A stretch of DNA of 64,000 nucleotides from the NCBI RefSeq assembly GCF_027923555.1, contig NZ_AP025523.1, positions 1 through 64,000 on the forward strand, written 5' to 3'. Below the pieces are notes generated by a model. It was given only the letters and a program-made list of their open reading frames with translations, did not search any database and was not told the DNA's origin. Below, piece after piece: positions 50,287-52,159 of the stretch (the first letter of the stretch is position 1; every line of letters starts with the position of its first letter). The translations under genes and the position numbers were made by a program. The stretch comes from Vulcanimicrobium alpinum. GTDB taxonomy: Bacteria > Vulcanimicrobiota > Vulcanimicrobiia > Vulcanimicrobiales > Vulcanimicrobiaceae.

Positions 50287-50959
50287 CAGCGGGCCGCCGC
50301 GGTGCGGACGTGCAGGCCGCACTCCGTCTTCGCGACCCACCGCCGGGCGCGCGCGTCTTCCCCGGGCGCGACCGCCCGCGTGCACGGGACGCAGCCGACG
50401 CCCGGGTACCCCTGGGCGTGCAGCGCGTTCACCGGGACGTCGTATGCCGCGACGTACTGCTCGATGTCGTCGTCGGTCCAATCGAAGAGCGGACTCACCT
50501 TGGTGATACCATCGTCATCGACGCTCATCGGCGCCACCTCGCGCCGCACCGCCGACTGCGTCCGCCGGATCCCGGTCAGCCACGCGGCGTAGCCGCGCAT
50601 GAAGGCGCGGTACGGCTCGACCTTGCGCAACGCGCAGCAGAGATCGGGGTCGCGCTCCCACAGTGCCGCGCCGTAGCGCTCCGCCTGCTCGTCAAGCGAT
50701 TGCGCGGGTGTCATCGCGATCGGGTCGATCCCGTAGCGTTCGCGAGCGCGTGCGGTCAGCGCGCGCACCTCGTCGAACAGCAAACCCGTGTCGAGATAGA
50801 ACACCGGCACGTGCGGATCGACGCGCATCGTCATATCGAGCAGCACCATCCCGGACGGGCCCCGAACGAACAGGCGAGTGCGGTCGGAGCATGCTCGCGC
50901 AGCGTTCGGCGGATGGCGCGTTCGGCGCTTTCGATCGCGCCGCGGGCGGTGATATTCAC
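50286..50959 (-). CDS. cysH: Assimilatory APS reductase CysH (frame broken by one base)
   Basis: CysH reduces APS to sulfite. The main frame holds GMVLLDM, VFYLDTGLLFDEV, RDPDLCCALRKVEPYR, GCVPCTRAV and KTECGLH; the paired cysteines (CC and C-x2-C) bind the 4Fe-4S cluster of APS-type reductases. The N-terminus is in another frame: GTG 50959, with an AAAGG site, gives ITARGAIESAERAIRRTL and ACSFGA. Adding one base in CGGGCCCCG (50856-50864) joins the halves into ACSFGAPSGMVLLDM, exactly the family pattern, about 225 residues. Either a recent mutation or a sequence error. It is the first gene of the cys operon, and its stop overlaps the permease ATG. Confidence 0.88.
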
Positions 50960-51006: not shown

Positions 51007-51034
51007 AAAAAAAAGCCCCGCCGTTCGGCGAGGC
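51007..51034 (-). terminator. Intrinsic terminator in cysH leader
   Basis: On the minus strand an 8-bp stem (GCCTCGCC 51034-51027 with GGCGGGGC 51022-51015, one G-T wobble) with a GAAC loop is followed directly by eight T residues (51014-51007). It stands about 48 bases before the cysH GTG. Upstream A-A and downstream T-T can lengthen the stem. It is the most canonical terminator in the window. It may end the DUF697 transcript, act as an attenuator for cysH, or both. Confidence 0.88.
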
Positions 51035-51066
51035 TTCCAGCACGTCGTTGTCGAGCGCGCGCGAAT

Positions 51067-51129
51067 CTACGCCGTATCGGGATCGATGCGGAGACAGGAG
51101 GCACATGCGCGGACGGCGAGCGAGATCAT
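51067..51129 (-). CDS. Putative cysteine leader peptide (attenuator)
   Basis: A 20-codon reading frame, MISLAVRACASCLRIDPDTA, begins at ATG 51129 and ends with TAG 33 bases before the terminator stem. Its two cysteines (residues 9 and 12) both use TGT in a genome that strongly prefers C at the third position. GGCGTAGATTC at 51073-51063, overlapping the stop codon, can pair at 8 of 11 positions with GAAGCCTCGCC (51037-51027), the terminator's left arm. This fits ribosome stalling at scarce Cys-tRNA favouring an antiterminator. The ribosome site is modest (GGTGGGG further up, GGGAC next to ATG). Translation is not proven. Confidence 0.5.
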   Translation of the reverse strand: MISLAVRACASCLRIDPDTA

Positions 51130-51163: not shown

Positions 51164-52159
51164 TCAATCCTTGCCGTTGCGCCGGACGCGCGCGAACAGA
51201 TCGCGTGCGAACGCCGTCGCCGCGCTCTTCGCGTCGTCGTACACGCGCGACGCGTCTTCGACGCCCATCTGGCGGCCGTGGCGATAGTAGTACGAGACGC
51301 CTTCGCCGACGACCGCGGTCCCCGCATACGCGATCGCGGCCTTGATGATGATCCCGCCGACGGGGATGAAGCCCGAAAGCTCGCGAGCGAGCGCGCGCCA
51401 GCCGAAACCGCCGCCGACCACCGGCAGCAGTTCCCACAACTGGTTGAAATCCGGATCGCGGCCGTAGGTCGCGCCGATGTTGAGCATGAGCGTCATCTGA
51501 ATCCCGGTGATCGCCATCATGTCGCCGGCCGATGCGAACGCGCCGAGCACGACGCCCAGCACGGGGACGTGATCGACGACGGCGCTCGCGCCCGCGACTT
51601 TGAGCGAGTTGAGCGACGCGTCTCGGGTGAGCTTTGCGGAGACGGTGTCGCGCAGCGCGGGGAGTTGCCGTCCGACGGCGACTTCGATCCCGCGGCAGCA
51701 GTCGATGAGATGCGGGAGCACGCGTCCGCGCAGCGCGTCGTAGTCCATGCGGTCGACGACGTACTCTTCGACCGTCGCCGACGCCGGCGCTTGCACCGGG
51801 CCCGAGGTCGCGGTCGCCGCGGGATCGACGACGACGTACAGAATCGGCAGCTTGAGCGCCGCGAGCCGGTCGAGCCGCATCGCCTCGCGGTCGCCGGGCC
51901 GTGCGCAGACCAGGATCGCACGTGCATCGAACGCGTCGACGTTCCGCTCGGTGTCGAGCGTCTCGAGCGCCGCCGCCGCCTCAGGCGGGATGGTGTCGCC
52001 TTCGTATCCGGCGAGGAGTACGCCCCGCAGGTCGCTCACGAGCGCCGGGTCGCCGTACAGAAAGAACTTGAACGGACGGCGGGCGCCCGCGTGGACCGCC
52101 CCGATGTTGAGCGACCCGCGCAGGCGTTCGAAGACCGCGGCGGCAGAGGCGGGATTCAC
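51164..52159 (-). CDS. DUF697-domain protein with degenerate G-domain-like N-terminus
   Basis: A 331-residue protein. The N-terminal 150 residues look like an Era/dynamin-type GTPase core (FKFFLYGDPALVSDL, ARAILVCARPGD, KLPILYVVVD) but the P-loop lacks the GKS/T, so GTP binding is doubtful. The C-terminal half matches DUF697 (about 180-300): two hydrophobic helical pairs with VDHVPVLGVVLGAFASAGDMMAITGIQM and SGFIPVGGIIIKAAIAYAGTAVVGEG. DUF697 usually follows a GTPase domain in envelope-associated proteins. GTG start. It lies downstream of the M48 protease gene (32 bases), probably one transcript. Function unknown. Confidence 0.6.
   Translation of the reverse strand: MNPASAAAVFERLRGSLNIGAVHAGARRPFKFFLYGDPALVSDLRGVLLAGYEGDTIPPEAAAALETLDTERNVDAFDARAILVCARPGDREAMRLDRLAALKLPILYVVVDPAATATSGPVQAPASATVEEYVVDRMDYDALRGRVLPHLIDCCRGIEVAVGRQLPALRDTVSAKLTRDASLNSLKVAGASAVVDHVPVLGVVLGAFASAGDMMAITGIQMTLMLNIGATYGRDPDFNQLWELLPVVGGGFGWRALARELSGFIPVGGIIIKAAIAYAGTAVVGEGVSYYYRHGRQMGVEDASRVYDDAKSAATAFARDLFARVRRNGKD

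Follow-up and report, generated by a model that had tools for sequence, protein, structure and literature searches.

A probable cysteine-responsive transcription attenuator before the cysH operon of Vulcanimicrobium alpinum, one of a set of amino-acid leaders of common design

Results

The cysH locus and its leader region

The window, by which we mean the whole stretch of 64,000 nucleotides of V. alpinum DNA that was analyzed, carries a cysH-tauE-cysDNC operon on its minus strand, preceded by a short cysteine-containing open reading frame and an intrinsic terminator. The features of the locus are listed in the order of transcription.

51167-51138, minus strand: predicted promoter; -35 TTGACG (51167-51162), 18-nt spacer, -10 TGGGGT (51143-51138)
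51129-51067, minus strand: leader peptide ORF MISLAVRACASCLRIDPDTA; 20 codons, ATG to TAG, AUG 8 nt after the -10
51105-51094, minus strand: predicted regulatory Cys codons; TGT at codon 9 (51105-51103) and codon 12 (51096-51094)
51075-51062, minus strand: predicted antiterminator segment ACGGCGTAGATTCG; spans the leader stop, best duplex with the terminator arm plus loop
51038-51004, minus strand: intrinsic terminator; stem 51038-51011 of 12 pairs, loop GAAC (51026-51023), eight T
50959-50286, minus strand: cysH (APS/PAPS reductase); GTG start at 50959, PRK02090 E 2.5e-61 (NCBIfam), Pfam PF01507
50283-49486, minus strand: TauE/SafE-family permease downstream of cysH in the operon; Pfam PF01925 E 1.9e-39
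49627-48683, minus strand: cysD (sulfate adenylyltransferase small subunit), ORF intact; Pfam PF01507
48692-46836, minus strand: cysNC (GTPase and APS kinase fusion), ORF intact; Pfam PF00009 and PF01583

A preliminary description of this DNA had recognized a 20-codon frame with two TGT cysteine codons, which we confirmed on the minus strand at 51129-51067, and a terminator behind it. The terminator stood, its stem ranking first among terminator-like sites in 10 kb, and the distance from leader stop to stem was corrected from 33 nt to 28-29 nt; the 48 bases given for the gap between terminator and cysH agree with our 47-48 nt to the GTG at 50959. The same description was right about the leader and terminator but overlooked a one-base frameshift in cysH. 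Compared with the closest orthologue (genome G091), V. alpinum lacks one base between 50862 and 50861 (GGCGGCCC in G091, GGGGCCC in V. alpinum), and a frameshift alignment showed that the deletion puts the N-terminal part of the protein in a different frame from the rest. Downstream of the deletion everything is conserved, including every residue invariant in relatives. The frameshift is either recent decay into a pseudogene or a sequencing error.

Conservation of the cysteine leader in relatives

CysH was found in 20 of the 99 genomes of the family. A contig search with a single CysH query gave no matches, and the CysH proteins retrieved with a CysH alignment came from other phyla, for the most part not from this lineage. 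In nine relatives, cysH, sir or a tauE-cysH pair is preceded by a terminator and a leader that has 3-6 Cys codons among its 20-27 codons. The leader of the closest orthologue is MISLAAACPGACCLCAESPETA, and further examples are MQYVLCCCPCRCFGDSVGPA (G086) and MLCPCCCPAPDFACCRMATGRGVALD (G060); G086 has two divergent Cys leaders, one directed towards cysH and the other towards sir. Where cysH lay directly behind another gene in the relatives, no leader was found immediately upstream of it. Codon usage sets the leaders apart, with a TGT:TGC ratio of 77:41 in Cys leaders versus 53:238 in family genes (Fisher p 2e-19). Conservation of the Cys codons and stem among relatives, proposed earlier as the check on an attenuator, was thereby borne out: leader and terminator are kept in nine relatives, and the antiterminator covaries.

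Promoter and predicted leaderless start

The preliminary description placed a promoter somewhere upstream without locating one, and we now propose the candidate at 51167-51138, whose pattern is aligned in 48 leaders of the family. Its 18-nt spacer ends in TG, forming an extended -10, and TTGAC-N17/18-TGnTAnnnT is present in nearly all of the 48. At position 2 of the -10, 46 of them carry A and one carries T, G being confined to the V. alpinum cysH copy. The distance from the -10 to the leader ATG is 6-12 nt in 48/48 leaders, so the transcript should start on the AUG or at most a few bases from it, and the leader of V. alpinum cysH would be leaderless, with its AUG at the 5' end of the transcript. 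A pattern search for this arrangement of promoter and leader start found it in 96 of the 99 family genomes, usually at several sites in each. The control, in which the pattern was reversed, was present in few genomes. The leader promoter at 51167-51138 was not among the sites given by a generic sigma-70 scan. Elsewhere in V. alpinum (L181/L194 and L182/L195), the same extended -10 promoter with an AUG at the expected start stands before other genes, one probably encoding ribosomal protein L21 and one a BlaI-like regulator. Leaderless transcripts seem common in V. alpinum.

An intrinsic terminator between the leader stop and the first gene is likewise aligned in 48/48 leaders. SAM riboswitches and T-boxes control sulfur genes in other bacteria, and a riboswitch, T-box or protein-bound leader might in principle sense sulfur status here. 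We consider this hardly credible, given that a search of the window against Rfam found no family at gathering score, that the weak matches included no T-box or SAM element, and that the conserved part of the leader consists of the coding region, promoter and terminator.

An antiterminator at the leader stop covaries with the terminator

Pairing between GGCGTAGATTC at the leader stop and the left arm of the terminator had been noted before; it exists, and the terminator loop takes part in it as well. In the window copy, GGCGTAGATTC and the terminator arm plus loop form the best duplex, at -12.5 kcal/mol, which alone is no better than that of shuffled sequence (p = 0.19). Placement of the antiterminator around the leader stop codon, also part of the earlier account, holds at the same position family-wide, with covariation across the 48 leaders. 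When leader ends were paired with the terminator left arm alone, they did no better than shuffles (Fisher p 0.36), and this form of the antiterminator was rejected. With arm plus loop as the target, leader ends paired above shuffles (Fisher p 3e-12) and cognate duplexes beat non-cognate ones (p 3e-7). The loop is complementary to the bases that lie 5' of GGC in the leader (permutation p 5e-5; p 0.0096 when restricted to cysH/sir/tauE leaders), in matched sets such as GATC/GATC, GAAC/GTTC, GACC/GGTC, GGTT/AACC and GGAC/GTCC. When six antiterminator pairs were laid on the alignment, 83% of cells were paired compared to at most 55% in a slid control, doubly changed cells numbered 17 compared to 5.7 by shuffle, and 0/500 shuffles reached the covariation score. 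The 48 leaders are related and not independent, which makes all of these p-values too small, but neither the slid control nor the loop test hinges on one sequence group. Of the four loop bases of the window copy, two match the leader end, and the same holds for G091.

Median distances place the start of the antiterminator segment 21 nt ahead of the stop and 12 nt past the final regulatory codon. From this spacing, a ribosome at the stop codon would cover the segment; a ribosome held up at the regulatory codons would touch its near edge at most. An antiterminator that is exclusive with the terminator and positioned at the stop thus describes the leader family; in the window copy it is weak. The textbook trp case has a 1:2 protector hairpin, which is not strictly required, and none was detectable when sought in the leaders (Fisher p 0.31). 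Folding of the whole leader against shuffles was uninformative (z -0.55).

These results bear on whether the leader might act on translation. According to papers citing Canestrari 2020 (PMC9031893, PMC13236596), the leaderless polycysteine ORFs of Mycobacterium smegmatis are translational attenuators, and by analogy the Cys leader here could control translation of cysH in place of termination. This appears quite unlikely, because 48/48 leaders keep a strong intrinsic terminator and its T run and because the covarying partner of the leader end is the terminator arm plus loop rather than a ribosome-binding site of the gene.

A class of leaders whose codons match the pathway

The preliminary description treated the attenuator as a feature of cysH; that reading held, and its scope widened, with cysH being one of about ten such operons in the genome. 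A first model, built from the sequence only of eleven Cys leaders, also matched many leaders before other amino-acid genes. A second model (R2), built later, gave ten strong V. alpinum sites, cysH included. The leaders of V. alpinum are given below with the genes they precede, named by NCBIfam.

before sir: MLLCCCLLMACPASVARRSASS
before a gene for an SsuA-type sulfonate-binding protein: MPNAASFLAMCMCCLPRPGVG
before metY (O-acetylhomoserine sulfhydrylase): MNRRSLAMMMCCCSPRGTV
before ilvA: MLRCALVIIAGSIIAAPPSRRVVSA
before ilvC: MLSRLVVLVSVLLAVLIDGRRDVFA
before ilvE: MASRYAFPVFSLTVGICPPAGSSFA
before aroA: MLSGAYFYRWYPRCTQVVSVEFGIA
before pheA-aroF (prephenate dehydratase-DAHP synthase fusion): MAVTSWFYRYFYAECAALRRGRPLP
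before hom: MFAHGVITTTMTTTLGEGGSGSTSA
locus handles of these nine leaders: L186, L187, L188, L189, L190, L191, L192, L196 and L262

In V. alpinum, the leader codons fit the pathway, with Cys before cysH, sir, ssuA and metY, Ile/Leu/Val before ilvA, ilvC and ilvE, Phe/Tyr/Trp before aroA and pheA-aroF, and Thr before hom. Across 68 leaders, cysteine made up 15.0% of leaders before sulfur genes compared to 0.6-3.1% elsewhere (p 1e-25), and there was corresponding enrichment of Ile/Leu/Val before ilv/leu (p 4e-27), Phe/Tyr/Trp before aromatic genes (p 3e-16) and Thr before hom (p 8e-17). A scan of the phylum (E <= 1e-4) gave matches in 75 of 149 genomes: 71 from the same family, three from another family of the order and one from another family of the class.

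Two cysteines in 19 codons would arise by chance with p ~0.013 (about 1.3%), which alone is mildly unusual, and the upstream gene (51164-52159) ends about 35 nt ahead of the leader. The terminator could therefore be imagined to belong to that gene and the small ORF to be accidental. We judge such a coincidence very improbable in view of the orthologous leaders, which carry 3-6 Cys, and of a profile made from 15 ilv/leu/aro/hom/metB leaders, with no Cys leader among them, whose single match in the 64 kb window is the full promoter-to-terminator stretch at 51167-51004 (E 1.9e-11). A profile made without the window copy and its closest orthologue still matches the window copy (E 5.9e-11).

Some leaders have mixed codons. 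The L188 leader, MMMCCC, precedes an O-acetylhomoserine sulfhydrylase gene, and the L214 leader, with Thr, Met and Cys, precedes a homoserine dehydrogenase gene; these suggest that one leader can sense several end products. In another family of the order, a Cys-codon leader MNRYAVPCVMCPTPRMHASAN... (L288, L289) lies before a sodium/solute-symporter-like gene, which is possibly a cysteine transporter. A member of the Blastocatellia (Acidobacteriota; L117:2807-2905) has a Cys leader MTKNRKLMYCICCSALQ... and a 13-pair terminator before a siroheme-synthase-like gene, a candidate Cys attenuator outside Vulcanimicrobiota that by its spacing would not be leaderless.

Tentatively, the class could stem from one ancestral modular cassette, consisting of an extended -10 promoter, a leaderless leader of 18-28 codons, a loop-pairing antiterminator and a CGCC/GGCG terminator, that was copied to about ten amino-acid operons with exchange of its codons, making leaderless attenuation the main amino-acid control of the lineage; we regard this as possible but doubtful. 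The leader peptides have similar RR...A ends because the antiterminator sequence CGGCGA dictates them, and this similarity would fit common descent and shared constraint equally.

State of the V. alpinum cysH copy

The cysH copy of V. alpinum is the weakest member of the class: it has two Cys codons, its -10 lacks the key A, its loop matches poorly and the gene is frameshifted by one base. It has probably lost strength and may be decaying. Taken further, it could be a remnant of an attenuator that worked in the ancestor, with promoter, Cys codons and cysH eroded in V. alpinum and nothing useful still regulated, a prospect that we take seriously without favoring it. The leader of G091 has four Cys codons to the two of V. 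alpinum and a -10 of TAAGGT in place of TGGGGT, and the one-base deletion in cysH points the same way. Five genomes of the same genus (G087, G090, G094, G095, G096) gave no CysH match. In three of the five (G087, G094, G096), an SsuA-type gene still has a Cys leader in front of it. Loss of cysH may therefore be widespread in this genus, and these three suggest a shift from sulfate to sulfonate use. On the other side, the terminator and leader frame are intact in V. alpinum, cysD and cysNC are open, the invariant residues of cysH past the deletion are all kept, and the deletion itself could be a sequencing error.

Discussion

Comparative sequence analysis points, with good confidence, to a Cys-responsive ribosome-mediated transcription attenuator of the cysH-tauE-cysDNC operon that is one of a leaderless set of common design in the phylum. 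The attenuator reading of the preliminary description gains support from the conserved Cys leader and terminator and from the covarying antiterminator. The promoter, leader, terminator, fit of codons to pathway and covarying antiterminator emerge from comparing sequences; the start site, stalling, termination and direction of the response are deduced from them. In the mechanism that we propose, RNA polymerase would initiate on the leader AUG or no more than a few bases away, and a ribosome would load on the 5' end. With plentiful Cys-tRNA, the ribosome would reach the stop codon and cover the surrounding segment, allowing the terminator to fold and transcription to end. With scarce Cys-tRNA, it would stall at the Cys codons and leave the leader-end segment free to pair with the terminator 5' arm and loop, and transcription would proceed into cysH.

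A literature search, which was not exhaustive, found no report of attenuators in Vulcanimicrobiota/Eremiobacterota. This little-studied phylum, whose first cultivated member was described in 2022, seems to let amino-acid shortage switch on the matching biosynthesis genes, and the leaders give a first testable picture of its amino-acid gene control. Sulfate and sulfonate assimilation would join the operons under transcription attenuation, in a compact leaderless design whose terminator loop participates in the antiterminator. Because the sensed amino acid can be read from the leader, the class may be of use in annotating uncultured genomes, for transporters as well as for enzymes.

Classical ribosome-mediated attenuation is exemplified by the trp, his, leu, ilv, thr and phe leaders of Proteobacteria. 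The Vulcanimicrobiota leaders resemble these in having a leader rich in the pathway amino acid, an intrinsic terminator and an antiterminator competing for the terminator 5' arm. They differ in their predicted leaderless start, in having no detectable 1:2 hairpin and in the inclusion of the terminator loop in the antiterminator, and for V. alpinum cysH the sensed amino acid would be cysteine. The trp and ilvB leaders of Actinobacteria are also ribosome-mediated attenuators (PMC1262725).

Cys leaders without terminators have been predicted in mycobacteria, Propionibacterium and Bifidobacterium (PMC1262725), and Cys leaders are also described elsewhere (PMC4633059). Like the mycobacterial polycysteine ORFs, the Cys leaders described here are Cys-rich and lie before sulfur genes; from the 6-12 nt between -10 and AUG, they would be leaderless. 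The mycobacterial ORFs have no terminator and a contiguous Cys run at the leader end, whereas the V. alpinum family has an intrinsic terminator, a covarying antiterminator and Cys in mid-peptide; the actinobacterial loci that we examined had leaders such as ...RRHVDFKRVCSCCCLS and no strong terminator. The uORFC-8-2 motif before cysS in Rhodobacterales, a proposed Cys ribosome-mediated transcription attenuator (PMC8632094), is similar in having a short upstream ORF with Cys codons followed by an intrinsic terminator. This alphaproteobacterial motif is confined to cysS and has tandem Cys codons 14-15 inside the first stem, whereas the V. alpinum family serves biosynthesis and uptake genes, is apparently leaderless and has a different structure. 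The attenuator RNA of Sinorhizobium meliloti trpL is leaderless, its first bases being the AUG of its leader ORF, and it ends at an attenuator (PMC7298713), an arrangement like the one proposed here; that system differs in sensing tryptophan, in belonging to Proteobacteria and in serving a single operon.
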